NCBI GenBank assembly: GCA_025927935.1
Contig: JAICKM010000080.1
Coordinates: 1-15,141 of the forward strand
Reading direction: 5' to 3'
Origin: Chloroflexia bacterium
Lineage (GTDB): Bacteria; Chloroflexota; Chloroflexia; QHBQ01; JADMIH01
DNA length: 15,141 nucleotides
Shown: positions 2 to 15,141 of the stretch, piece by piece
How the letters are laid out: each line of letters begins with the position of its first letter
Numbering within the stretch: the stretch's first letter is position 1
Translations under genes and position numbers: made by a program
Notes under the pieces: model-generated
What the model was told of the DNA's origin: nothing
Databases searched by the model: none
What the model saw: only the letters and a program-made list of their open reading frames with translations

Positions 2-3000
2 CTCGACCCCGCCTACCGCATCGCCAACACCATCTGGGACGCCACCCCCTGGCCGGTGGACCGGCGCATTACCCGCGCCCAAACTGCCATGGTGCCCGGT
101 TGGACACAAGAAGAACTGGCCGGTAGCGATCTGGACCTGTCCGTTGCGCTCCCCCCGGAGCCGCCCGCTCCCTCCAGCGAGTCGCGCCGGGTCACGCAGA
201 AGTTCGAGACCCGCCCGCCCCTGCCCGGCGAGTCGCAGCGCATCACGCAGAAGTTCGAGACCCGCCCGCCTCTGCCCGGCCAGACCAGCGAGTTGGTGCC
301 GCCCCCCGAAGCGGCGGCAGCCGAATCCCAGGAATGGGCGGGCATCCTGGATAGCCCGGACGCGCCCGCCACCTTCGACCTGGATTGGTTGGACGATTGG
401 GCCGCCGCCGCCGAAACCGCGCCCGCCGTCGAGACCCCGCCGGCAGTGGCGCCCACCGCATCGGCCTATGAGACCCTGGAGTTCGCGGCAATTACAAGCA
501 CCGGCACCGAGGACACGCTCCCATCGGCGGAGGGCCTGATTGTTACCCCGGCGCCGGAAGCCGCCCCCCCAGAACCGGTAGCCGAGGCAACGGAGCCGGC
601 AGCCGCCCCGGTCGAAGCCGCTAATATCAGCGGGCAGGGCACCACCGAGATCGAGGCGGTTCCGGTCGCGCTGGAAGAGTCCGCCCCATCTGCGGATCTC
701 GTCCTGCCGGCTGCCCCGGTGAGCGAGGCGGCGCTTCCGGCTGCCGAGCCGGATGCCTTCCTCGCCTGGCTCAGCGAACCGGTAGCAGATATGCCGGAAG
801 CGCCGGAGAGCGCCGCCGAGGGGTCGGGAGAGGACATGGCGGAAGCGCGTGTCACCGGGGACTCATCCCCGGCGGCCCAGGTAAGTATGTTTCCCGCCTT
901 GGTGAGCGAACCCCCCGCCGCCGTAGCCGGCGTACCTCTCGCTGAGGAAGACCTAACGGCAGCACCGGCGGAGGAAGTGTCTACCGCGCAGGCCAGTCTG
1001 TTCCCCGCCTGGCTGGATGAGCCGGCTAATGTGGCGGAGCAAGCCGCCCGGGCTGAAAACACGACCACCGATGCAACAGTGAATGCCGGGGAGCAAGCCG
1101 CCTCGGCCGCGAGCGCCGCCGCCGATACGACAGCACAGGCATCTGAGATGGACGGGGCGGGCACGGCTGATGGCGCGGAAGATAGTCCCCCCGCCCGGCA
1201 CCACGCCGTCCACATCTTCCCGGCCTGGCTGGAAGAGGCAACGAGCGACGACGAAGACGAGTCAGATCTGGAGATGCTGCCCGCCTGGATGCGCGAGGCC
1301 CCCCCGCTCGAAGTCGACGCCCCGCCAGCCGCCGCCTCAGCATCACCGGCGGCAGATATGCCGCCGACCCCACCAGACGCGGCCATCCTGGCGGCGCAGG
1401 TGGATGAATCCCTGCCCGCCCCACCGGTCCTGGCGGAAGCCGTCAGCCTGGTCGCGGCAGAGCAGGAAGCGCCGGCCAGCATCGCCGGTGAGGAACCCGG
1501 CGTGGCTGTAATAGAGGGCCAGGCAGAACCGCCGGCCCTCTCCCTGGAGGAACCTGCTGTATCCGCAACCGAAGCGCAAGGCGAGAGCCTGGGCGCGATT
1601 GCCATACCGCCCACCGACGATGCGCCCACGCCGGATGCCGTGGTCGATTTCCCAGACCAGAGTCCGCTGGTTGGCGAATCGGCGCTGCCGGTCATGGAGC
1701 CGGCCCTGCCGGAAACCGAAGCATCCGTGTCCGCGGAATCCGGTACCATCGTGGCCGGCGAGATAGGCGAGGGGGCACCGGCCGCCGCGCTCCTGCCGGA
1801 CGATCTGTTCCCGGCCTGGTTAGAGGAGATCGAGCGCAGCGAAGCGGCAAGCGCAACCGCCGCACCGCCGGCCGGTGCCGGTGCGGCGGACATGCTCTCT
1901 GCCGAAGTAGTGCCGGCAAGCACCACCTCGCCGGAAGCAACCGTGAGCGAAGCAGCAGCGGCAAGTGCGATCGCGCCGGAAGTGCCTGCTGATGAAGCAG
2001 TACCAGCCATAACCGCCCCGCCGCAAGGGATACCTGCTGGCGAAGAAATAGAGGCAACGGCGACCGTGCCGGAAGCGATGCCTGCTGAAGAAGCGGCGGA
2101 TAGTGCCGCACCACCTACCCCACCACCCGCAACGGCCGCCATGTCTGGTGCGGATTCCGTACCAGGGGACCAAGAAGGCAAGGCCGTGGAGTCCTGGGCG
2201 CAACCGCCTGCCCCGGCAGCCGAAGACGGGATGTTTCCGGCCTGGATGAGCGAGACAGGCGCGGCTAGTCTGCCGGTTGGGGCCACGCCCGGTGCGCCGG
2301 AAGCCGCAAGCGCCGGACCCGCGGATAGCGACCAGGCCGCATCCGCGCACCCCGAATCCCTGACCCCGGCGCCCGAAGCCGGGATCTTTCCCGCCAGGCT
2401 GGAAACCATGCCCCAACCGGGTAGCGATGCGGGCGCGCCGGCGGAAACCGCGTTCACACGGGAAGCGGAATCCGCTCCGCTGCCAGGCGAAGCAAGTGTG
2501 CTGCCCGACTGGCTTACCGAGGCGGTGAATGTCCAGTCGCCGGAGTCCCCTGCCGCGGCCCCGCCGCTTGCGTTGGACGAAGAAACGCTGTTCGCGACCG
2601 ACCATACTCTCGGCGGACAGGCCGGTGACATCCCTATCGACGAGGATTTGTTCCCCGCCTGGTTAGAGGAAGGTCCGCCCGCCGCCCCGGCATCCGGCGA
2701 ACTATCGGCCACCGTGGCAGCCGGGGCTTCCCCCCAGGCGCCGACCACAGTTGCCGATCAGGCGCCATCCACCGCGCCCGCGCAGGAAGTGAACGAGTTG
2801 CCGCCGGTAGCCGTAGCGGAGGATGTCACGTTCTCTGCTGGGTCTGACGAAGTGGTGTCCTCGCCGGCGGCGGCCATTGCGGCGGCACAGAGCGCACATG
2901 GCATGTTGGGCACGGCGGAAGCACCGGCGACGAGCCAGGAGCCAGGAACCGCCGAGAACATCGCGGGCGAACGCGCCACGCCGGACACCAGCGAGGAACC

Positions 3001-6000
3001 GGACGAGTTCCCGGCGTGGATGGCCGGCCCGTGGTTCGAGGTCGCGGTGGCCCCGGCGGCAGGCACCGGCGAGATGAGCGCCGAATCGCTGGTGATTGTG
3101 CCGGATAGCGCGGTACAGGCGCCCGGCACGGAACTGCCGCCGGCGCTGCCTGTCGCCGCGGCCACCAGCCGCCAGGAAGGCGAGTCCGGCGAGGATACCG
3201 CCGCCCCGGCTATGGCCGCGACGGAAGGAGCAGCGGAGCCTTTCGCCATTAGCGCTATGGCCGTGCCGATCCCCGCGGTGCCAGGCACGCCGGACGCGGG
3301 AACGCCGGAGGACGCGCCGGATGCCGCTGCCAATGCCGCCGCGCGGGATACAGCGGGTAGTGCCACGGCGGGCGCTGCGGCAGCCGCGGACAGTGAGTCT
3401 GCCGGGTTGCCGGGCTTCATCGTAGCCGATGACTCCGCGCCGGTCGAAAGCTACCCGGCTGATGCGACGCCGGAGGCCGCCGAGCCGCTCCACGAGGAGA
3501 TTCTCGACTGGCCCGTGCCCGCCGAGGGCAGCGCGGATGCCGCCGCCGAGGCCGATCAGCCTGTCGACTTCAGCGCAGTCGCCGAGGAGACCACCACCGC
3601 GCCGCCCGCGGATCTGCGTGCGCCCGAATCACCCACAGCACCCGCCGCACCGCCGCAAGATGATGCGTCCCAGGCGGCGGAATCCGCGCCTACCCCCGCC
3701 TCGCAACCTGCGTTAGATCATTTTGCTAAAGTGGGCTATAATCATGGCGACGACTCGCAGATCCCGCATGACGCGGCAGAATCCGGCCCCCCGCCCACCC
3801 CGGTCGGCGCGGCTGGTGCCGTTACCGGACCTGTAGAGATACCGGATCGGCGTAGCCGAGTTGAGTCCGGTCACCTGCCGGATGGATCGGCGGAGCATGG
3901 CGCGCCCGCCACCGCAGGCCAAACAGCTTTCGCGACCTCAGAGGAGGACAACATGGCTCCTAGCTATAAGGAAGACGACGATCAAGAGCGCCAGTTCGAC
4001 TTCGACTGGGATCGCGATGCTCTGCCGGATTATCTCAAGCCCTTCCTGATGAATGAGACGCCCGGCCAGCCGGGACAGCCGCCGGCGCCCGCCGCGCCGG
4101 CCGGTCCCGGCGCGAACGCGGCACCCCCCGCCGGACAGCCCATGCCGCCCGCACCCCCACCTGGCGGCGGCCCAGGGGGCAACGACTTCAACCTGGATAA
4201 TATTCAGCCGTTTGATTTCGGCGCAGTGCCCCCACCGAACCGCCCGGCCCCGCCGTCCGGCCCCGTAGCGCCGATCCGGCCGCTGTCCGCTGCTCCGCCG
4301 CCGGCCCCGCAGCAACAGGCGCCGGGTGGGTTCAACGAGAGCGATTTCGGTGGGGTGCAGCCCTTTAATTTCGGCGCTCCGGCGGGCGCAGGCGGCGGTG
4401 ATGAGTTCGACTTCGGCAGCGATGCGCTCCCGTCCTGGTTGGGATCGGGCGGCGCCGCCGGCCCCGCTTTCAGCTTCGATACGCCCGCCGGTGTCCCGCA
4501 AGCCGCGGATCAGACGCCGGGTCCCGATTTGAGCAGTCCAGGTATTCCCGATTGGCTGCGCACCCCGGAAACGCCAACGCCCCAGGCCGCCGCGCCGCCA
4601 CCCCCGGCTGCCCCTGGCGGCGATTTCGACTTTGGCGGCGAGGCGCTGCCCTCCTGGTTGAGTGCGAGTGCCGCGGCCCCCGCCCCACCCGCCGGGAACG
4701 ATTTCGGTGATGTGCAGCCCTTCGACTTCGGCGCCGCCGGCGGCCAGGGGCAGCCGCAGCCCTTCGACTTTGGGGCGATGGCCGGCGGCGCCGCCCCTCA
4801 GCCGTTTAATTTCGGCGCTCCCGCAGCGCCCGAGCGCGGCGCGGCCCCACCAGCGGGGCTGGGCGAAGACTTTGACTTCAGCGCGGTCCAGCCGTTCGAT
4901 TTCGGCGCCCAGGCGCCTCCGGCCCCGAGTATGCCGGCGGGGCCGGGTTCCGGCGGCGACTTTGATTTTGGCGGCATCCAACCGTTTGATTTCGGCGGCA
5001 CAGCCGCGCCCGCGCCGGGGTCATCCGATGTAAGCGGAGCCGCGCAAGCCGCAGGCGCACCCGGCGAGTTTGATTTCAGTATGGTGGAGTCGTTCGACTT
5101 CCGCGGTCCCGGCGGCGCAACGCCCGCGGCCGGTAGCTCCGGCGATTTTGATTTTGGCGGGGTCCAACCGTTTGACTTCGGCGGGGGCGAAACCACCCCG
5201 GCGGCCGCCGGCGGACCGGCTATGGCCGGTGGCCCGGCCGGCGACTTCGATTTCGGCGGCATGCAGCCGTTTGACTTCGGCGGCGCCCCCGCTAGCGACA
5301 TCGCGGGCGACGTGAGCGATGTCGATGACTTTATCGACTTCCTGAGCGTGGGCGCCGGAAACGCCGAGCCTGCCCCGTCCACCCCTGGCGAATTCGCGTT
5401 TGACCTGGGCGGCGATGTGCAGCCCTTCTCGCTGGAAGGCGCTGGACTCGGCAGTGCGCCGCCCGCGCCCGGCCCAGCCTTCGGCGCTCCGCCCGCCCCC
5501 ATGTCCGGCCCGCCGGAGCGCGGATCGCGCCTGCCTGCCGGCCCTGGTCCCGAGGAGATGGGCAGCCTGGCCGGCGATGAGTTCAGCTTCGAGCCGTGTA
5601 TGTTTGATGCGGAGGGCGGCGCCGCCCCGGCTTTCAGCGCTCCGCCCGCCAATGCGCCCGCCTCTAAAGAGGCACCGCCGCCGTTTAACCAGGCGCCGGC
5701 CATGCCCACGTCGCCCTTCAATCCGGGATCGATGTTTGCCGGGCGCGCCCAGGCCGATGTGCCGCCCGGCCTGGAGGATCTGCCCGATCTCCAGCCCTTC
5801 TCCTTCGAGGGCCTGGATTCGACCAGCGATCAGGGCTATGGCTACGACACCGGCGACATGGGGCAATCCTTTGGCCGGCGCTCCACGGACCGGGGCGAGA
5901 CCAGCCGCAGCGGCATGGCCTTCAACCTGGACGAAGAAAGCAGCGGCCCCGCCGGGGATGTGCATAGCTTCTCGTGGCAGCGGCGCACCACCCCGGCCCG

Positions 6001-8740
6001 CGAACCGGCGCACGCCCCGGAAGCACCGGAGACCGCCGGGTCCATCTTCGCCAAGGCGCGCAAGCGCAAGGAGGAGTTGGAGCAAACCCTGCGCCAGGAG
6101 GCGGAAGCGCGCGGAGAAGTCTACACGCCCCCGCCGGTCGTCGAGAACCTGCACCCCGAAGAAGCGGCGGAATTGCGGTACTGGCCCAACCTGGACGAAG
6201 AAGAGGCAGTGGCGAGCGCCCCAGCCCAACCGGCGGTCCAACCCTTCGACTTCACCGCGGTGGCAGGTCCCACGCCCGCCGATGTCGCCCAGGATATGGC
6301 GAGCCTGCAACTGGCCCCGTTTGAGTTCGAGGAAGAAGCCGCGCCCACCGCGGGATCGCCGACGATTCAGTTGCCGGAGGAAAGCGCGCAAGTGAGCGCT
6401 CAGGTGCCGGACGTGCCCGAATTCGCCGCCGGCCAGCCCATGCCGGTGCCGGTGCAGGATCAGACCGGCCTCCAGGCCGGTACCCCGGCCATGCCGGAGC
6501 CGTTTGCCTTCGACGCCGAGGGTATCACCGCGGATATCCAACCCTTCTCGTTCGATCTGGGCGAGACGGTGCCTGCTGACGCGCAACCCGCCCAACCCCT
6601 CGCCGAACCCTTCGCCTTCGAGCCACAGCAAACCGGCGCCGCCTCTGTGCAGCCCTTTGCTTTTGAGCCACAGGAAAGCGCCGCTGATCAATCCTTTGCC
6701 TTCGAACCACAGGAAAGTGGTCCCGCGGCTGTCCAACCCTTCAGCTTCGAGGCCCAGGAGGGCCAGCCTGCGGTGGTTGAACCTTTCACCTTCGAGGCCC
6801 AGGAAACCGGCGCCGCCACAGCGGAACCCTTCGCCTTTGAGCCACAGGCAGGCCAGCCTGCGGCTGTCCAACCCTTCACATTCGGGGCCGAGGAAGGTCA
6901 ACCTTCGGCGGTCCAACCTTTCGCCTTCGATGCCGAAGAAAGCGGGGCTGCGGCGGTCCAACCCTTCGCCTTTGAGGGTCAGGAAAGCGCCGCCCCGGCG
7001 GTCGAACCCTTCGCCTTCGAGGCCCAGGAAGAACAACCTGCGGCTGTCCAACCCTTCACCTTTGATACTCAGGAGAGTAACACCCCGGCAGTCGAACCCT
7101 TCACCTTCGAGACGCCGGAAGCCGGCGCCCCGGCGGTGGAACCCTTCGCCTTTGATGCGTCGGCCATGGGAGAACCCGCTGCGGAAGTTGCACCCTTTGC
7201 TTTCGAGACACCGGAAGCCACCGTGGAGCCGGAGGTGGAACCGTTCGCCTTCGATATGACCGAGGCCGGGGCGGCGCCCGCCGTGGAGCCGTTCACCTTC
7301 GACATGGTCGAGAGCGTGGCGCCGCCTTCCTTCGAGACGGCGGAGCCGAGTGCCACCGCGCCGCAGGCCGAAGCCGCCCCGGCGGAGACCACTGCCGGCG
7401 AATTGCTCTGGAGCATCCCCGTCGCGGAACCGGGCGCGGCGCCCGTGGCCGAGGCGGGCATCGAGGGTGGCTTCGGCGAGGAAGTGGCCCCAGGCGAATA
7501 TGACTTCAGCGGCCTCCAGCCGTTTGACCTGGGGGCGCTGGATCTCACGCCCGAAGAACGGGCGTATCTCACCGGTGAGCAGGCGGGGGCCGCAAGCATG
7601 CCCTCCGCGGAAGCGCCGCCCACCGAGGTCAGCGCGCAAGCGCCCGCCGCACCCGCGGAGGTGCCGGCCTCAGCGATGGAACCGGCCGGGATTCCTGAAT
7701 TGCAGTTGCAGCATGGCGAACCGGCGATGGGCGCGGATGTCGCGGAGATCGAGCCGTTCAGCTTCAATGTAGCCGCGTTTGAACCCCCGGCGGCCGAACC
7801 GCCCGCCATGGACCTGGGCGGGGTGCCGCCTGCTCAGGCGCCCGGCTACGAGGCCGGGGCGCCCACAGCGACGGTCGAACCGGTCGAGTTCGACATGGGT
7901 ACCATCAGCGAAGCCGCGCCGGTGGAGCCGTTCCAGTTCGAGTTCGAGCCGGAAGCGGCGACCTCCGTGCCGGTGGAGCCGTTCCAGTTCGAGCCGGAAG
8001 CCATCGAGGCCGAAACGGCGCAGCCGTTCAGCTTCGAGACGCCGGCCCCGCCGGCCCCGACTGTCACCCACTATGAAACGTCGGCGCGATCCGGCACCGG
8101 GCCACTGGCCGCCGAAACCTGGGCGGAAATACCCGCGGAAGGCGCCTTCGACTTCAGCGGGGTCGAGATGGACCAGACGCCCGCCGAACCCGCCGAGGCC
8201 GCCGCGCCCGAAGCTGCCGCCGCGCAGACGCCGGAGGCGCTCGCCGCCCCGGTCGCCGCCGCGCCTGCGACCGAGGCACCCGCCGAGGCGCCCGCGGAAC
8301 CTGCGGCCCCGGTCGTGGCCGAAGCATCCACGCCAGTCCCGGTCGCCGAAGCACCCGCGCCGGTGGCCGCCGAACCGGCCCAGGCCCCCGTCGCGCCAGC
8401 GGCGGTGCCGCTCGCCCCGGCGGGGGGGTCAATGGACGAATTGGCCCGCCACCTGCGCGATAATCCGGACGATACGGCCGGCCGATTGGCCCTCGCCATC
8501 GGCTACGAGCAGCGCGACGACATCACGCGCGCCGCCGAGCAATATCGCCTGCTGATCAAAGGCCGCAATGTGCCGGAAAATCTACTGGATATCGTGACGG
8601 GCAACCTGCGCGATCTGGTGGAGGCGCAGCCTGATAATCCGGCCTTACATCGCCTGCTGGGCGACGCCTACATGAAACAGGGCCAGTACCAGATGGCAAT
8701 CAGCCAGTATAATTGGCTGTTGACCAAGGGCACGCGCTAG
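2..8740 (+). CDS. Giant repeat-rich disordered protein with C-terminal TPR domain (5' end outside window)
   Basis: The frame is open to the left edge, so the gene probably begins upstream; the first internal start is GTG at 56, from which it encodes 2894 residues. Numbering below is from that GTG. The first codons in view (LDPAYRIANTIWDATPWPV) look like structured coding sequence. Residues about 40-1220 are Ala/Pro/Glu-rich with 11 FPAWL-type motifs (235-990). Residues about 1376-1745 carry FDFG/QPFDFG modules. A charged helix (KARKRKEELEQTLRQEAEA) lies near 1997-2022. About 18 PF-x-F repeats cover 2148-2425. A Pro/Ala linker precedes a TPR-like domain at 2793-2894 (LHRLLGDAYMKQGQYQMAISQY). 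I saw one cysteine (EPCMFD), no signal peptide and no membrane segment, so a cytoplasmic scaffold is likely; the function is unknown. It heads an operon, with the V4R gene 9 nt downstream. The stretch at 3713-3952 looks non-coding, so it may be two genes. The TPR call is solid; the gene boundaries are less so. Confidence 0.8.
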   Translation, partial: LDPAYRIANTIWDATPWPVDRRITRAQTAMVPGWTQEELAGSDLDLSVALPPEPPAPSSESRRVTQKFETRPPLPGESQRITQKFETRPPLPGQTSELVPPPEAAAAESQEWAGILDSPDAPATFDLDWLDDWAAAAETAPAVETPPAVAPTASAYETLEFAAITSTGTEDTLPSAEGLIVTPAPEAAPPEPVAEATEPAAAPVEAANISGQGTTEIEAVPVALEESAPSADLVLPAAPVSEAALPAAEPDAFLAWLSEPVADMPEAPESAAEGSGEDMAEARVTGDSSPAAQVSMFPALVSEPPAAVAGVPLAEEDLTAAPAEEVSTAQASLFPAWLDEPANVAEQAARAENTTTDATVNAGEQAASAASAAADTTAQASEMDGAGTADGAEDSPPARHHAVHIFPAWLEEATSDDEDESDLEMLPAWMREAPPLEVDAPPAAASASPAADMPPTPPDAAILAAQVDESLPAPPVLAEAVSLVAAEQEAPASIAGEEPGVAVIEGQAEPPALSLEEPAVSATEAQGESLGAIAIPPTDDAPTPDAVVDFPDQSPLVGESALPVMEPALPETEASVSAESGTIVAGEIGEGAPAAALLPDDLFPAWLEEIERSEAASATAAPPAGAGAADMLSAEVVPASTTSPEATVSEAAAASAIAPEVPADEAVPAITAPPQGIPAGEEIEATATVPEAMPAEEAADSAAPPTPPPATAAMSGADSVPGDQEGKAVESWAQPPAPAAEDGMFPAWMSETGAASLPVGATPGAPEAASAGPADSDQAASAHPESLTPAPEAGIFPARLETMPQPGSDAGAPAETAFTREAESAPLPGEASVLPDWLTEAVNVQSPESPAAAPPLALDEETLFATDHTLGGQAGDIPIDEDLFPAWLEEGPPAAPASGELSATVAAGASPQAPTTVADQAPSTAPAQEVNELPPVAVAEDVTFSAGSDEVVSSPAAAIAAAQSAHGMLGTAEAPATSQEPGTAENIAGERATPDTSEEPDEFPAWMAGPWFEVAVAPAAGTGEMSAESLVIVPDSAVQAPGTELPPALPVAAATSRQEGESGEDTAAPAMAATEGAAEPFAISAMAVPIPAVPGTPDAGTPEDAPDAAANAAARDTAGSATAGAAAAADSESAGLPGFIVADDSAPVESYPADATPEAAEPLHEEILDWPVPAEGSADAAAEADQPVDFSAVAEETTTAPPADLRAPESPTAPAAPPQDDASQAAESAPTPASQPALDHFAKVGYNHGDDSQIPHDAAESGPPPTPVGAAGAVTGPVEIPDRRSRVESGHLPDGSAEHGAPATAGQTAFATSEEDNMAPSYKEDDDQERQFDFDWDRDALPDYLKPFLMNETPGQPGQPPAPAAPAGPGANAAPPAGQPMPPAPPPGGGPGGNDFNLDNIQPFDFGAVPPPNRPAPPSGPVAPIRPLSAAPPPAPQQQAPGGFNESDFGGVQPFNFGAPAGAGGGDEFDFGSDALPSWLGSGGAAGPAFSFDTPAGVPQAADQTPGPDLSSPGIPDWLRTPETPTPQAAAPPPPAAPGGDFDFGGEALPSWLSASAAAPAPPAGNDFGDVQPFDFGAAGGQGQPQPFDFGAMAGGAAPQPFNFGAPAAPERGAAPPAGLGEDFDFSAVQPFDFGAQAPPAPSMPAGPGSGGDFDFGGIQPFDFGGTAAPAPGSSDVSGAAQAAGAPGEFDFSMVESFDFRGPGGATPAAGSSGDFDFGGVQPFDFGGGETTPAAAGGPAMAGGPAGDFDFGGMQPFDFGGAPASDIAGDVSDVDDFIDFLSVGAGNAEPAPSTPGEFAFDLGGDVQPFSLEGAGLGSAPPAPGPAFGAPPAPMSGPPERGSRLPAGPGPEEMGSLAGDEFSFEPCMFDAEGGAAPAFSAPPANAPASKEAPPPFNQAPAMPTSPFNPGSMFAGRAQADVPPGLEDLPDLQPFSFEGLDSTSDQGYGYDTGDMGQSFGRRSTDRGETSRSGMAFNLDEESSGPAGDVHSFSWQRRTTPAREPAHAPEAPETAGSIFAKARKRKEELEQTLRQEAEARGEVYTPPPVVENLHPEEAAELRYWPNLDEEEAVASAPAQPAVQPFDFTAVAGPTPADVAQDMASLQLAPFEFEEEAAPTAGSPTIQLPEESAQVSAQVPDVPEFAAGQPMPVPVQDQTGLQAGTPAMPEPFAFDAEGITADIQPFSFDLGETVPADAQPAQPLAEPFAFEPQQTGAASVQPFAFEPQESAADQSFAFEPQESGPAAVQPFSFEAQEGQPAVVEPFTFEAQETGAATAEPFAFEPQAGQPAAVQPFTFGAEEGQPSAVQPFAFDAEESGAAAVQPFAFEGQESAAPAVEPFAFEAQEEQPAAVQPFTFDTQESNTPAVEPFTFETPEAGAPAVEPFAFDASAMGEPAAEVAPFAFETPEATVEPEVEPFAFDMTEAGAAPAVEPFTFDMVESVAPPSFETAEPSATAPQAEAAPAETTAGELLWSIPVAEPGAAPVAEAGIEGGFGEEVAPGEYDFSGLQPFDLGALDLTPEERAYLTGEQAGAASMPSAEAPPTEVSAQAPAAPAEVPASAMEPAGIPELQLQHGEPAMGADVAEIEPFSFNVAAFEPPAAEPPAMDLGGVPPAQAPGYEAGAPTATVEPVEFDMGTISEAAPVEPFQFEFEPEAATSVPVEPFQFEPEAIEAETAQPFSFETPAPPAPTVTHYETSARSGTGPLAAETWAEIPAEGAFDFSGVEMDQTPAEPAEAAAPEAAAAQTPEALAAPVAAAPATEAPAEAPAEPAAPVVAEASTPVPVAEAPAPVAAEPAQAPVAPAAVPLAPAGGSMDELARHLRDNPDDTAGRLALAIGYEQRDDITRAAEQYRLLIKGRNVPENLLDIVTGNLRDLVEAQPDNPALHRLLGDAYMKQGQYQMAISQYNWLLTKGTR
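188..289 (+). repeat. Two tandem copies of a 51-bp in-frame unit
   Basis: Two adjacent 17-residue units (188-238 and 239-289) encode R-V/I-TQKFETRPPLPG followed by ESQ or QTS. The DNA copies are nearly identical, differing at a few bases, which indicates a recent duplication in the N-terminal part of the giant protein. Unlike the surrounding acidic sequence the unit is basic, with Arg and Lys. Confidence 0.85.
752..3027 (+). repeat. Dispersed array of 11 FPAWL-type motifs in a disordered region
   Basis: Eleven short aromatic motifs recur in otherwise Ala/Pro/Glu-rich sequence: FLAWLSE, FPALVSE, FPAWLDE, FPAWLEE, LPAWMRE, FPAWLEE, FPAWMSE, FPARLET, LPDWLTE, FPAWLEE and FPAWMAG. Most are preceded by D/E/S/G plus a hydrophobic residue and followed by E. 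The spacing is irregular, roughly 20 to 190 residues. Tryptophan is almost confined to these motifs. The related forms LPDYL, LPSWL and IPDWL continue at about 4020-4660. Conserved motifs in variable spacers suggest repeated docking peptides; the partner is unknown. Confidence 0.75.
3713..3742 (+). promoter_or_regulatory. Promoter-like AT-rich island inside the long frame
   Basis: A perfect TATAAT lies at 3737-3742 within an AT-rich stretch that stands out in very GC-rich surroundings. The region 17-18 bp upstream (about 3713-3719, TTAGATC) is a poor -35 match, and there is no extended -10. Both other forward frames have stops here (TAG at 3714, TAA at 3727), as is common at true gene ends. 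It could drive a separate downstream gene starting at 3953. It may also be a chance match, because the frame runs through it uninterrupted. Confidence 0.4.
3942..3947 (+). promoter_or_regulatory. Perfect Shine-Dalgarno before internal in-frame ATG (3953)
   Basis: AGGAGG is followed by a 5-nt spacer (ACAAC) and an ATG at 3953-3955 in the frame of the giant protein. This is the strongest ribosome binding site in the window. Translation from it gives MAPSYKEDDDQERQFDFDW, where the FDF-type composition begins. Read as protein, the site itself encodes Ser-Glu-Glu-Asp-Asn, so it could be coincidental. Confidence 0.5.
4181..5288 (+). repeat. FDFG / QPFDFG module array (FxFG-like)
   Basis: At least ten modules follow the pattern [D/E]-F-D-F-[G/S]-G-[I/V/M]-Q-P-F-[D/N]-F-G, separated by Gly/Pro/Ala-rich spacers. 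Examples are IQPFDFGAV, VQPFNFGAP, VQPFDFGAQ, IQPFDFGGT and MQPFDFGGA. Two modules replace the second half with ALPSWL. One is degenerate (VESFDFRGP). Weaker copies continue to about 5815 (VQPFSLEG, LQPFSFEG) and at 6239 (VQPFDFTAV). The protein pattern is far better conserved than the DNA, where F, D and Q codons vary, so selection acts on the peptide. Confidence 0.85.
6497..7330 (+). repeat. About 18 near-tandem PF-x-F repeats, mostly 15 residues (45 bp)
   Basis: Units follow [Q/E]-P-F-[A/S/T]-F-[E/D]-x-Q-E-[S/G]-x-x-A-A-V, for example EPFAFEPQQTGAASV, QPFSFEAQEGQPAVV and QPFAFDAEESGAAAV. Most are 15 residues, with a few of 13-17 and longer ones at the edges. Codon choice is distinctive: [C/G]AACCCTTC dominates here, against CAGCCGTTT/CAGCCCTTC in the earlier FDFG array. 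This suggests a separate, more recent local expansion by slippage or unequal crossover. Copy number probably differs between strains. Confidence 0.88.
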
Positions 8741-8749
8741 GGGTCTATT

Positions 8750-9241
8750 ATGCCTGATCTGCACACCGGCCACGAGGGCGGGATCGCCGACCTGAGCATG
8801 GCCGATATCACCGCCGTCGACCGGCCCACCTTAGGGCCGGCGACAGCGGTGGCCGCCTTCCGGGCGATCCGGCTCGGTGCCCTGGGCACCGTGGCTGGGT
8901 CAGGCTTGAACGGCGCCGTCTACCTGGCCGGGCGCCGTTGGGCGCAGAGCCTGATCTTTACCACTCCGGCCGATCTGTTTCGCACGCTGGCCGAACTGCG
9001 TCTGGGAGTGCCGCGGGTGCTTAGTCAGAGCGCCGACACTATCGAAATCGAACTGGCGGAAACCCTGAGCGCCGCGGGCTTGCCCCCTGTGGGCGAGCCG
9101 TTATGCCACTTCGAAGCCGGGTTCCTGGCGGGCGCCCTGGCGACGCTGACCGGCAAGCGCGTCCAGGTGCGGGAAACGGCCTGCTGGGGCACCGGCGGGC
9201 AGCGGTGCGTCTTTGTCGCTAAACTCGAACCCCGGACGTGA
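8750..9241 (+). CDS. V4R (4-vinyl reductase) domain protein, small-ligand sensor type
   Basis: This 163-residue protein has a C-terminal V4R signature: CHFEAGFLAGAL from residue 119, then VQVRETACWGTGGQRCVF. Cys119, Cys145 and Cys153 match the Cys pattern typical of the family. V4R domains are small-molecule-binding modules found in BchJ-type bacteriochlorophyll proteins and as sensor domains of regulators; they usually act by binding rather than catalysis. The ligand here is unknown, and no chlorophyll gene is in view. The ATG follows AGGGG at 8739-8743 with a 6-nt spacer, 9 nt after the giant gene, so the two are very likely co-transcribed. There is no signal peptide or membrane segment. 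The family call is confident; a role with the Roadblock protein downstream is inference from adjacency. Confidence 0.85.
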   Translation: MPDLHTGHEGGIADLSMADITAVDRPTLGPATAVAAFRAIRLGALGTVAGSGLNGAVYLAGRRWAQSLIFTTPADLFRTLAELRLGVPRVLSQSADTIEIELAETLSAAGLPPVGEPLCHFEAGFLAGALATLTGKRVQVRETACWGTGGQRCVFVAKLEPRT

Positions 9242-9288: not shown

Positions 9289-9636
9289 GTGAGGAAAATC
9301 GTCGAAGATCTGATTCGCATCGACGGCGTGATCGGCGGCCTGCTGGTGGGCAAAGACGGCCTGGTGGTGTCGAGCACCCTGCTGGAAGATGAAGATGCCG
9401 AGGTCCTGGGCGCGATGTCCGCCGCCATGTTTGGCACTATCGCCAAGGCGGCCGAGCGGATCGGCGTGGGCGCCCTGCGCGACACGATCATCGAAGCCGC
9501 CGAGGGTTCCATCCAGTTAATCGAGGCCGAGGATCTCATCCTCGTCGTGATCACCGAGCGGGGCGTGAACCTGGGCATGATTCGGATCGAGATGCGCAAA
9601 GCCGCCAAGCGCGTCCGTGAAGAGATCCCGATGTAG
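9289..9636 (+). CDS. Roadblock/LC7 domain protein (MglB-like)
   Basis: This 115-residue protein is a single Roadblock/LC7 domain. Typical features are the N-terminal helix (RKIVEDLIRIDGVIGGLLVG), the KDGLVVSST strand, an alpha-helical middle (VLGAMSAAMFGTIAKAAERIG) and the closing strands (IIEAAEGSIQLIEAEDLILVVIT). Family members dimerise and commonly regulate Ras-like GTPases, as MglB does for MglA in polarity and motility. The start is GTG at 9289, supported by GGGAGG at 9275-9280 with an 8-nt spacer; there is no suitable ATG. It lies 47 nt after the V4R gene. No cognate GTPase is visible here, so the partner is either elsewhere or something else, such as the upstream scaffold. The family call is secure; the specific role is unknown. 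Confidence 0.9.
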   Translation: MRKIVEDLIRIDGVIGGLLVGKDGLVVSSTLLEDEDAEVLGAMSAAMFGTIAKAAERIGVGALRDTIIEAAEGSIQLIEAEDLILVVITERGVNLGMIRIEMRKAAKRVREEIPM

Positions 9637-9686: not shown

Positions 9687-10136
9687 TTGGAACGCACGCT
9701 TATTATCCTGAAACCCGACGCCGTGCAGCGTGGCCTGGCCGGCGAAATCCTGAACCGGCTGGAGCGCCGGGGCCTGAAGATCGCCGGCATGAAGATGATG
9801 CAGGTCAGCCCCGAACTGGCAAAAGAGCACTATGCCGAGCATGTCGGCAAGCCCTTCTATAATGGCTTGATCGAGTATATCACCTCCTCGCCGGTGGTCG
9901 TGCTGGTGCTGGAGGGCAAGAACGCCGTTGCCGTCTCGCGCAGCACCATCGGCGCGACCAACCCGGCCAACGCGGCGCCCGGCACGATTCGCGCCGACCT
10001 GGCCGTTGAGACCGGCCGCAACCTCATCCACGGATCGGCCGACCCGGAAGCCGCCGCCCGCGAAGTGAGCCTCTGGTTCAAGGACGACGAGTTAACCTCC
10101 TGGCCGCGCGATACCGACCGCTGGATCCAGGAGTAA
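9687..10136 (+). CDS. ndk: Nucleoside diphosphate kinase
   Basis: This 149-residue enzyme transfers the gamma-phosphate of ATP to nucleoside diphosphates through a phosphohistidine and keeps cytoplasmic NTP and dNTP pools balanced. Hallmarks are the N-terminal ERTLIILKPDAVQRG with Lys9, Tyr49 (HYAEH), Arg85 and the SRSTIGATNP loop, Arg102 (GTIRADLA), and the active-site N-x-x-H-G-S at 112-117 with catalytic His115. Length is normal for the family, with a slightly long C-terminus rich in Asp and Trp. The family-typical Asp directly after HGS is replaced by Ala-Asp (HGSAD), a mild variation. Initiation is at TTG. It sits 50 nt after the Roadblock gene and 10 nt before the glycosyltransferase, inside the operon. 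The assignment is very secure. Confidence 0.97.
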   Translation: MERTLIILKPDAVQRGLAGEILNRLERRGLKIAGMKMMQVSPELAKEHYAEHVGKPFYNGLIEYITSSPVVVLVLEGKNAVAVSRSTIGATNPANAAPGTIRADLAVETGRNLIHGSADPEAAAREVSLWFKDDELTSWPRDTDRWIQE

Positions 10137-12385: not shown

Positions 12386-12437
12386 ATGAGTGTACATCAT
12401 TACATTGGCATCGGACTCTAAGAGGCAGGAGACCTGG

Positions 12438-12665
12438 ATGAAACAGACTCGCCAACTAACTGCAATCATTGAGCGCGAAGACGACGGATACGTAGCACTA
12501 TGCCCGGAACTCGACATTGCCAGCCAGAGTGATACGGTTGAGGAAGCGCGACGTAATCTGGTGGAAGCACTGGAGTTATTCTTTGAGGTCGCTGATCCCA
12601 GCGAGGTGGAGCGCTGGCTGCACAATGAAATCTTTGTTACGCGTGTAGAGATTCCCGTTGGGTAG
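12438..12665 (+). CDS. hicB: HicB-like antitoxin (UPF0150 family), short form
   Basis: This 75-residue protein has the HicB core: LTAIIEREDDGYVALCPELDIASQSDTVEEARRNLVEALELFFE. HicB proteins fold like a partial RNase H domain and neutralise HicA mRNA-interferase toxins by binding them. The ATG at 12438 follows CAGGAG (12426-12431) with a 6-nt spacer; an in-frame GTG at 12390 would add an atypical N-terminus. This short form ends without the helix-turn-helix or ribbon-helix-helix tail found in longer HicB proteins, so self-repression through it is uncertain. The cognate toxin gene directly downstream is broken, leaving an orphan antitoxin. Base composition is less GC-rich than the operon before it, which fits horizontal acquisition. 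Confidence 0.88.
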   Translation: MKQTRQLTAIIEREDDGYVALCPELDIASQSDTVEEARRNLVEALELFFEVADPSEVERWLHNEIFVTRVEIPVG

Positions 12666-13024: not shown

Positions 13025-15141
13025 TTACGGGTTACGGAGCGCGGCCTGGGCCGGCGCGCAGTTCAGCGGGAAGAAGGTCTGCGAGACGACCTTGCTGGTC
13101 TGCCCGCGCGTGATGTTGGCGTTGGGCCGGTAGTAGACTCCGGGGCACGGCTCGCCGGCGGCGCCGCAGGTGTAGCCGTTGATCACCCCGTGCAGCGACA
13201 ACCGCTCGATGTAGACATAGAACGGGTTAGCCGCCGGCACGTCGTTGAAGGTCTGGCCGCTCGGCGTCTCGTTATAGCCCGCCGTGTTGGCGTCGATCTT
13301 GGCGAGTTGGCCGCGCGTCACCGGCAGTTCGGGCCGGAAGCAGGGAGTACCCGACGGGCAGTTGGCCGCCGTGTCGTAGCCGCTGATGTAGCCGTGGCCC
13401 GCCAACCGCCCGATAAAGGCGAAGAACGGGCTGCCCGGCGGCACGTCGGTGAACGTTTGCGTGGTGATGGGGTCGTTCAAGCCCGCCGCGTTGGCGACGA
13501 TCTTGGCGACCTGGCCGCGAGTCACGTCGGCGCTCCAGCGGAAGGTGTTGTCGCTATAGCCGCTGATGATGCCCCGGCAGTAGAGACACTGGATATACTG
13601 GTAGAACGGGTTGAATTGATCGACATCCGTGAAGGGTAGCGGGCAATTCACCGGCGTCGCCGTCGCCGCGGGCGCCGTGGGCGACGCCGTGGAACCGGCC
13701 GGCGGGGTAGCCGTCGGCGGGGCCGGCGTCACGGTTGCCGCGACGCCGGTCGGCGTCTCTGTCGCGGTAGCCGCCGGTGCAGTCGCGGTAGGCGGCACGG
13801 CGGTAGTGGTCGGGGTAGGCGTGGCCGCGCCGTTAACGGCGGCCAGGGCATCAATCCGCCCGTAGCCGAAGTGGTTGTTCGGGATGGTGGTGTAAGGAAT
13901 CCCACCGCAGGTCGTGGAGCCTGTGGTGACAAGCACGGTCGGGTTGGCCGTTTGCTCCAGCAGCGTCTTTGTCGCGGCGATCTGGCGCTTCAGGTCGGGC
14001 CGGGCCGACCAGAGCAGCGCCACCACGCCGACGACATGCGGCCCGGCCATCGACGTGCCCGACAGGCTGGCGTAGCTCGTTGTGCTGCTGGGATAGGCGG
14101 AACGCACATTGACGCCCGGCGCGGAGATATCCGGCTTGCGCCGGTTGGAGCCGTCGGCCGTCACCGGCCCGCGGCTGCTGAAGCTCGCCAGGGTGTTGCT
14201 GCTGTCGTACGCGCCGGTGCTGAACGCCGCGCTGTAGAGGCCGGGCGGATCGCTGACGGTGGAGCAAGCGCTGCCGTCGTTCCCCGCCGACGCCTCGACG
14301 AAGATACCGGCCGCCTCGGTGTTCTCGACAATCGTCTGGAGGGTAGTGGCCGCGCAGCCTTCGTCAGGCGGGCAGCCCCAGCTATTGTTCATCACATCCG
14401 GGCGCTTCGTCGGGTCTGCATTGTTGCCGCTCAGGTCCGTCGGCGCAATAAAGAATTCAAAGCACTCGGTATAGGTCGCGGGACTGCCGACGCCCTGATT
14501 CATATTGCGGCAGCCGATCCACTGCGCGCCGGGAGCGACACCGATCTGATTCGTGCCGCCGTCGTCGCCGATCACGGTGCCGGTGGTATGGGTGCCGTGC
14601 CCGTTGTCGTCGCAGGGGAAGGGCGAATTCGCCCCGCACGAGCCGCCGCCGCTGTGGACGGAGTCATGCCAGTTATAGTTGTGGTCGGCGGTGGTGCCGT
14701 TCCAGCCGCGATAATGCGGCTTGAGCGCCGCGTGGTCCCAGAGCATCCCGGTGTCCTGGTTGGCGATGACGATCCCCTGGCCGGTATAGCCCATCGCCCA
14801 GACCGGCGGCGCGTTCACATTCGCCACACCCCACTCGACCGCGGCGGGCGCGACCGGAGCCGTGGTCTTGTTCTGCGGCGCCCGCACCGGGTCGGTGATC
14901 GCGGTGAAGGTCGCGTTCGACTCAATAGCGCGCACATCGCTGCGCGCGGCCAGCGCATCAACCAGCGCGCGGTCGCCCGTGGTCATCAGCACGTTCGCCA
15001 CCCAGAACGACTGGTAGGTGCGGCCCTGGGCACGCAAAAACGCCTGGAGCGGCCCCTGGGTGCGCGCCGCCGTATCGCGCAGGCTGTTATAGACAAACCA
15101 CCCGCGCGCATCCTCGTCGCGCATATTATATGCGTTGCTCA
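13025..15141 (-). CDS. Subtilisin-like serine protease with three SLH domains (N-terminus outside window)
   Basis: The frame is open at the right edge; the first ATG in view (15124-15122) is preceded in frame by SNAYN, so the signal peptide and start lie outside. Numbering from that Met, residues 1-78 resemble an inhibitor-I9-type propeptide. The S8 peptidase domain spans about 95-430 with Asp124 (QDTG), His176 (NGHGTH), Ser358 (GTSMAGP) and oxyanion Asn246 (VMNNSWG); the set is complete, so it should be active. A Thr/Pro/Ala linker (about 434-492) leads to three SLH domains (about 497-547, 557-617, 625-686), which attach proteins to the cell surface. Cysteines are frequent in the protease domain (163, 171, 205, 221, 251, 257, 287, 406) and in the SLH part, suggesting disulfides outside the cell. 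It is a secreted, surface-anchored protease; the substrate is unknown. It is transcribed convergently with the operon. Confidence 0.93.
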   Translation of the reverse strand, partial: SNAYNMRDEDARGWFVYNSLRDTAARTQGPLQAFLRAQGRTYQSFWVANVLMTTGDRALVDALAARSDVRAIESNATFTAITDPVRAPQNKTTAPVAPAAVEWGVANVNAPPVWAMGYTGQGIVIANQDTGMLWDHAALKPHYRGWNGTTADHNYNWHDSVHSGGGSCGANSPFPCDDNGHGTHTTGTVIGDDGGTNQIGVAPGAQWIGCRNMNQGVGSPATYTECFEFFIAPTDLSGNNADPTKRPDVMNNSWGCPPDEGCAATTLQTIVENTEAAGIFVEASAGNDGSACSTVSDPPGLYSAAFSTGAYDSSNTLASFSSRGPVTADGSNRRKPDISAPGVNVRSAYPSSTTSYASLSGTSMAGPHVVGVVALLWSARPDLKRQIAATKTLLEQTANPTVLVTTGSTTCGGIPYTTIPNNHFGYGRIDALAAVNGAATPTPTTTAVPPTATAPAATATETPTGVAATVTPAPPTATPPAGSTASPTAPAATATPVNCPLPFTDVDQFNPFYQYIQCLYCRGIISGYSDNTFRWSADVTRGQVAKIVANAAGLNDPITTQTFTDVPPGSPFFAFIGRLAGHGYISGYDTAANCPSGTPCFRPELPVTRGQLAKIDANTAGYNETPSGQTFNDVPAANPFYVYIERLSLHGVINGYTCGAAGEPCPGVYYRPNANITRGQTSKVVSQTFFPLNCAPAQAALRNP

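Follow-up and report, generated by a model that had tools for sequence, protein, structure and literature searches.

Eukaryotic scaffolds are well known for long arrays of short docking motifs, which are less familiar in bacteria, and the linkers of FG nucleoporins are poor in acidic residues. Excerpts of four articles describe the closest systems: in Ragulator, the extended chain of p18 wraps Roadblock heterodimers (PMC5680233); human Eps15 carries 15 DPF triplets (PMC2238750); the Myxococcus TPR protein SgmX acts with MglA in the MglA/MglB polarity system (PMC7519303); and structures of Asgard Roadblock and TRAPPC3/V4R proteins are discussed in PMC10933270. A search of the open-access literature for Chloroflexota Roadblock with TPR, or for Chloroflexus disorder with tetratricopeptide, found no paper, and the family described here is large and seemingly unstudied.

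We analyzed a 15,141-nucleotide stretch of DNA from a Chloroflexia bacterium (the window), in which a long protein with an aromatic-motif linker is encoded upstream of V4R, Roadblock and ndk genes. The locus would resemble p18/LAMTOR1 in pairing an extended chain with Roadblock dimers, and the fold of the operon Roadblock lies near Ragulator subunits; p18, however, is short, wrapping two dimers a single time, whereas the window family has up to ~30 motif copies and TPR ends, its Roadblock binding is our proposal, and we claim no homology. Eps15 and the DPF adaptors, as far as the excerpt describes them, likewise present a string of short PF motifs in a flexible region for multivalent docking, but Eps15 is eukaryotic and unrelated, and the family motif is [QE]PFx[FL], longer and predicted to be helical in relatives. 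SgmX, in the excerpt concerned, is also a TPR protein tied to a Roadblock/Ras-like GTPase module; unlike SgmX-MglA/MglB, the window's operon Roadblock has no GTPase alongside. The FxFG nucleoporins share the FxFG spelling in an apparently flexible chain with the window, but the window block is acidic, the family is encoded in a bacterial operon and the glycine is not conserved in relatives; common descent is not claimed.

The motif array between two TPR regions

The window protein is encoded by a single ORF, in which a low-complexity stretch of ~2,780 residues separates two TPR regions (Table 1). No Pfam family matches the whole ORF at 1e-3, and NCBIfam yields only TPR models, all under their cut-offs, for the family members tested. 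A profile search does find TPRs in the last 196 residues, and the TPR_20 match there identifies the product as a TPR protein by profile-recognised repeats. A protein collection yielded two homologues: P0001, 1,759 aa long and 67% identical, and P0002, of 1,994 aa. The latter has N-terminal TPRs plus a C-terminal TPR match, and by eye the first residues of the window ORF align where the N-terminal TPRs of P0002 end; profiles also place N-terminal TPRs in the full-length relatives L069, L046, L055, L044, L060 and L049. Judged from these relatives, the complete window protein probably begins with TPR.

Table 1 Features of the window (IDR, the low-complexity linker)
Feature	Position	Strand	Remarks
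Single ORF: end of N-terminal TPR region, IDR, C-terminal TPR	2..8740	+	2912 codons; 5' end open, no upstream stop within the window
FPAWL/LPAWM/LPDWL-type motif stretch, first IDR half	1001..3022	+	Nine listed sites, one of them FPARL
In-frame internal Shine-Dalgarno AGGAGG, 5-nt spacer, ATG	3942..3955	+	Proposed second start, just before the FxFG block
Conserved module MAPSYKEDDDQERQFDFDWDRDALPDYLKPFLM	3953..4051	+	N-terminus of putative shorter product
Further LP[DS][YW]L / IPDWL sites	4019, 4424, 4544, 4643	+	Motif count
FxFG block of the initial annotation	4181..5815	+	9 PFxFG, 10 PFxF, 3 complete [DE]FxFG-xQPFDFG modules, 2 [DE]FDFG-ALPSWL units
FSWQ motif	5969-5980	+	Within 5969..6109
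Predicted basic helix SIFAKARKRKEELEQTLRQEAEA	6041-6109	+	Sole long helix of model m7b40bb393393; pLDDT 81-88 in two best blocks
PF[AST]F[EDG] array, spaced mostly by 15 residues	6500..7303	+	Motif count
Long motif form GLQPFDLGALDLTPEERAYL, one copy	7511..7570	+	Short predicted helix; pLDDT 73 in best block
Final four PFxF motifs (7754, 7928, 7979, 8024)	7754..8036	+	Motif count
C-terminal TPR region, conserved family anchor	8423..8737	+	TPR_20 28.5 bits, cut-off 25; alignments A1, A2
V4R-domain gene	8750..9241	+	V4R 2.5e-21
Roadblock/LC7 gene, candidate array receptor	9289..9636	+	Robl_LC7 (PF03259) 2.9e-15
ndk, steadiest neighbour	9687..10136	+	NDK 2.3e-57
Small UPF0150/PHD-like protein	12390-12665	+	Both matches under Pfam cut-off
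Subtilase (Peptidase_S8) with S-layer homology domains	13025-15124	-	

The initial annotation had described the block at 4181..5815 as ten or more [D/E]FDFG-[I/V/M]QPF[D/N]FG modules in an apparently disordered Gly/Pro/Ala-rich chain. The motifs, at the place given and in a chain of that composition, are real and far from chance: against 1,000 composition shuffles, the nine PFxFG compare with a mean of 0.15 and a maximum of 2, and 14 FxFG with a mean of 0.92 and a maximum of 4. The module count, by contrast, drops to three: complete [DE]FxFG-[IVM]QPFDFG modules stand at 4958, 5144 and 5243, the [DE]FDFG units at 4403 and 4622 have ALPSWL in the QPFDFG slot, and the remaining PFxFG are partial forms. 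Nor does the array end with the block, which is one segment of a larger whole and has arbitrary ends. Specifically, 33 PFxF motifs run from 4208 to 8024, PFxFG making up 10 of them, and downstream of the block the motifs are mostly glycine-free PF[AST]F[ED], in steps mostly of 15 residues. Counted as PFx[FLI], the window has 36 PF cores, with F as the second hydrophobic residue in 92% and glycine next in 31%, along with 11 PxW motifs. A search for other QPFxFG-rich proteins, which the initial annotation had called for, returned P0001 alone among 7,976 candidates scored.

The sequence of 4181-5815 has no match among solved structures at E<=1. The AF2 model of 4181-7591 has a mean pLDDT of 38.4, with 1,004 of 1,137 residues below 50 on an alignment of just four sequences; a helix at 6041-6109 (SIFAKARKRKEELEQ...) and a shorter one near 7550 stand out from this. 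The shortened motifs are therefore not predicted to fold alone, and the IDR linkers are predicted to be disordered, which supports the disorder suspected by the initial annotation, though on so shallow an alignment it does not prove it. The window protein shares with multivalent short-linear-motif (SLiM) scaffolds such as Eps15 or p18 a conserved short motif that recurs along an apparently flexible chain.

To model the longer motif of relatives, we folded three long motifs, the linker, the C-terminal TPR and Roadblock of L050 with AF2, reading across two TGA codons to obtain a single chain. Most of the TPR has a pLDDT of about 94-98, and Roadblock one of about 90; two of the three motifs reach 85-86, the best block of the third 72, and most of the linker lies below 50. 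In this model the full-length motif PFSLxDLGLSxEE is predicted to form two short helices, and the window appears to keep mainly a shortened core, [VIL][QE]PFxF. The pTM of the chain is 0.39, so motif and Roadblock have no defined relative placement, and the single-chain model was discarded as a source of interface information on docking.

Linker motifs and gene neighbours in three Chloroflexota classes

Genomes of three classes were searched for the family with a C-terminal TPR profile (A1, later A2). Matches were found in 93 of 158 genomes of the window's class (that of L001), in 189 of 298 of Anaerolineae (the class of L005) and in 47 of 47 of Ktedonobacteria (the class of L003, Ktedonobacteraceae), the weakest of which may be paralogues because the matches rest on TPR. 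We examined 128 loci: 60, 40 and 20 from the three classes, picked mostly for long open frames, plus the window and L001-L007.

Outside the window, the other loci of its class have 597 distinct PFx[FLI] sites, with the pattern PF-S(88%)-L(75)/F(23)-[DE]-[DE]-L-G-L-S-x-E-E-I, so that the consensus is mostly the longer module PFSLxDLGLSxEE. The extended form PFx[LFI]xxLGL occurs in at least three copies in 42 of 63 loci, with a maximum of 24 (L077), and Chloroflexus-type repeats have the form PFSLEELGLSPEEIAQLE. A further motif, [FY][SRND]W[QE], is present in 43 of 68 proteins, the window's copy lying at 5969. Eight loci of this class form a separate group with 2-5 PF cores and a divergent Roadblock downstream in 8/8; in two of them, L074 and L082, the PF core ends repeats such as GYTSMLDSLEAEGMEPFDP, with MEPFDP-like cores. 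These repeats, of which LPSEEELEGARPSDERERGYTSMLDSLEAEGMEPFDP is another example, are unlike those of the other loci and end in the same PF core. At least three PxW[LMVI] (maximum 23) and no more than one PF core are present in 38 of 43 Anaerolineae loci, while all 21 Ktedonobacteria loci have 0-1 PF cores. Judged from these counts, the linker motif changes type between classes, PxW[LMV] in Anaerolineae and PFSLxDLGLSxEE in Chloroflexia, and the window holds both. These comparisons document the architecture and the array, show that the family extends over three classes, and show that aromatic motifs of another kind take the place of the array outside the window's class. They also supply a natural series for direct comparison of scaffold and candidate receptor, with one operon position, different arrays and 0 to ~30 copies.

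A Sigma70_r1_1-like domain (GYVDLTDII...) lies between PF arrays within the IDR of L046 and L044, above the Pfam cut-off, and of L069, just under it. The L069 repeats also match the Pfam models FGAR-AT_linker, Terminase_6, HTH and DUF1127, which we took as repeated-helix artefacts.

The constant neighbours of the family are Roadblock and ndk only. Downstream of the 128 loci we found ndk in 105, V4R in one, the window itself, and Roadblock in 75, window included, these Roadblock matches being partly in-sample because the profile came from operon Roadblocks themselves; Roadblock is less than 200 nt away in 72 of the 75. V4R, which the initial annotation had named with Roadblock as a possible adjacent partner, was accordingly dropped as a general partner, while Roadblock was retained. 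The neighbour gene has both the domain and the fold of the Roadblock/LC7 (MglB-like) family: the model of a relative's Roadblock matches 9jue, 7f8m and 6hjm, and among solved structures the fold comes closest to Asgard Roadblocks (9jue, 7f8m), MglB and Ragulator subunits. No GTPase gene was found in the window by Pfam search, and in G001 the sole Arf-family match lies on a different contig, beside a paralogous Roadblock. A TRAPP-like domain set, in which V4R is close to a paralogous Roadblock and to an Arf-family GTPase match, is found on each of two other contigs, G011:C467 and G069:C3301.

Candidate partners of the array

At least two PF cores are present in 54 of the 63 loci of the window's class, and Roadblock lies within 1.5 kb downstream in 52 of the 54. 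PF arrays thus recur at the same operon position, so that the initial reading withstands the refutation by non-conserved motifs that it had itself named. Its picture of an apparently disordered, multivalent chain, in which aromatic motifs return at regular intervals and which is encoded next to Roadblock, is supported. Of the two exceptions, L059 stops at a contig edge and L051 is truly without Roadblock: it has 7 PF cores with ndk immediately behind, and its genome gives no match to the window's Roadblock at E<=1e-5. Eight loci with 0-1 PF core have no Roadblock, four of which (L090, L093, L094 and L098) may be paralogues, and L004, truncated at the 5' end, has a single PF core and Roadblock. 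A one-to-one pairing of PF motif and Roadblock looked good in this class but fails phylum-wide, as Roadblock lies downstream in 21 of 21 Ktedonobacteria loci without PF arrays. In Anaerolineae, Roadblock is downstream in 0 of 43 loci (among L108-L147, most have ndk), so aromatic arrays as such do not require Roadblock.

Sequence identities were compared between loci matched by NDK identity. At NDK 65-70%, Roadblock identity is 84% in PF6+ loci (range 37-96 over 288 pairs) but 45% in Ktedonobacteria (9 pairs) and 44% for 4 pairs of the PF2-5 group, with the C-terminal TPR at 41-42% in all three alike; at NDK 70-80, the C-terminal TPR is at 45% in PF6+ versus 75% in Ktedonobacteria. These values hinted that long arrays go with an exceptionally constrained Roadblock, an idea weakened by a paralogue control. 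In 17 of the same genomes, paralogous MglB-like Roadblocks, with no array alongside as far as known, reach 84% versus 80% for the operon Roadblock (NDK 65-70), and the operon copy is the more conserved in just 23 of 136 pairs. The paralogues being equally conserved, the constraint on the operon Roadblock is not array-specific. For the paralogue query in Ktedonobacteria, nearly all listed matches are the operon Roadblock or another single-copy match, so that this class yielded no usable set of paralogues.

We interpret the block as a lineage-specific part of a multivalent short-linear-motif array in a TPR-disordered linker-TPR scaffold upstream of Roadblock and ndk, whose motifs would dock a dedicated partner, most likely Roadblock; this reading is tentative, with a little less than an even chance of being right. 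Roadblock itself, which we take from the sequence comparisons as the likeliest receptor, likewise falls short of an even chance. Each motif would dock weakly on one dedicated partner, probably the co-encoded Roadblock dimer; one chain could thereby gather many Roadblock copies, and the result might be an assembly platform, possibly a condensate. If Roadblock is the receptor, this would be a bulk gathering of bacterial Roadblocks by a disordered chain, with a bearing on the origin of Ragulator-like platforms. More doubtful is the wider proposal of a Chloroflexota-wide scaffold, its linker re-tooled in each class with aromatic docking motifs, that would concentrate Roadblock dimers in the window's class in a manner Ragulator-like in principle and would have a second product from an internal start.

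The same array might instead serve self-association, its motifs binding the protein's own TPR grooves or each other in a homotypic network or condensate, with Roadblock a mere neighbour. TPRs do flank the IDR family-wide, including in Anaerolineae with PxW arrays and no Roadblock downstream, and two motif kinds share one slot in the window ([DE]FDFG-ALPSWL and [DE]FDFG-xQPFDFG); yet the C-terminal TPR, the one compared, drifts fast where arrays are longest, unlike a receptor for dozens of copies, and we hold self-association to be fairly unlikely. Docking to a third partner, be it an enzyme, a polymerase or a cell-pole or envelope component, is unlikely. PF, PxWL and MEPFDP-type motifs would then track different partners or variants, which suits the swap of motif type by class, and the Sigma70_r1_1-like domain in some members hints at transcription-linked contacts. 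A search with the long PF repeat in 12 genomes, which short cores would escape, argues otherwise: it gave matches in 11, every listed one inside a family ORF and in no other protein, and only Roadblock and ndk are constant as neighbours.

That the linker is a low-constraint spacer or entropic bristle, with repeats growing by slippage or recombination and motifs lacking a specific partner, is quite improbable. Copy number varies widely, and whole repeats have been gained or lost relative to P0001, the closest homologue, in which 25 of 33 PFxF sites are kept and 8 are not. Where ungapped, however, motif P/F/F positions are identical to P0001 at 82 of 84, against 1116 of 1430 (78%) at other ungapped IDR positions, non-motif F being also well kept (52/54); DNA copies of repeat families D1 and D2 have diverged to 61-80% identity with their reference copy, the peptide being kept; and a 13-residue pattern is kept across the 597 relatives' sites. 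Least credible by far are true FG-nucleoporin-like hydrogel repeats of the permeability-barrier type. The resemblance to FxFG nucleoporins seen by the initial annotation amounts to the spelling and the apparently flexible chain of the window block, and we rejected the analogy beyond that: FG as a conserved core and few acidic linker residues characterize those proteins, whereas the residue after PFx[FLI] in the 597 relatives' sites is mostly D, E or A and glycine in just 3%, the block has 66 D+E versus 9 K+R in 545 residues, and the motif in relatives is longer and predicted to be helical. The 'FxFG' is a local flavour of the window, because the glycine is not conserved in relatives.

A proposed internal translation start

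An internal Shine-Dalgarno sequence and ATG precede a MAPSYKEDDDQER...LPDYLKPF module (pattern [FL][DE/F].W..xLPDYL), which is carried by five of the 128 loci (the window, L001, L045, L066 and L068) and also by P0001 and P0002. In all five loci, an in-frame ATG lies 13-17 codons upstream with AGGAG or AGGAGG at 5 or 9 nt. It is the sole ATG past ORF nt 600 with AGGAG/GGAGG at -14 to -3 in L001, L045, L066 and L068, and the window has one further such ATG, out of frame. Among loci with six or more cores, such a Shine-Dalgarno sequence stands at 16 of 660 in-frame ATGs, the five module loci included, and in the 'other' group at 33 of 583; GAG-GAG codons yield in-frame AGGAGG in acidic proteins, notably of Anaerolineae. 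The evidence is strong but not independent, since the five loci are related.

We propose the ATG at 3953 as a second translation start. The product would lack the N-terminal TPR but retain the array and the C-terminal TPR, the FxFG block would be the N-terminal part of this second product, and one gene would provide a scaffold in two lengths. The codons that spell the internal Shine-Dalgarno sequence vary, encoding EED, KE or QE.
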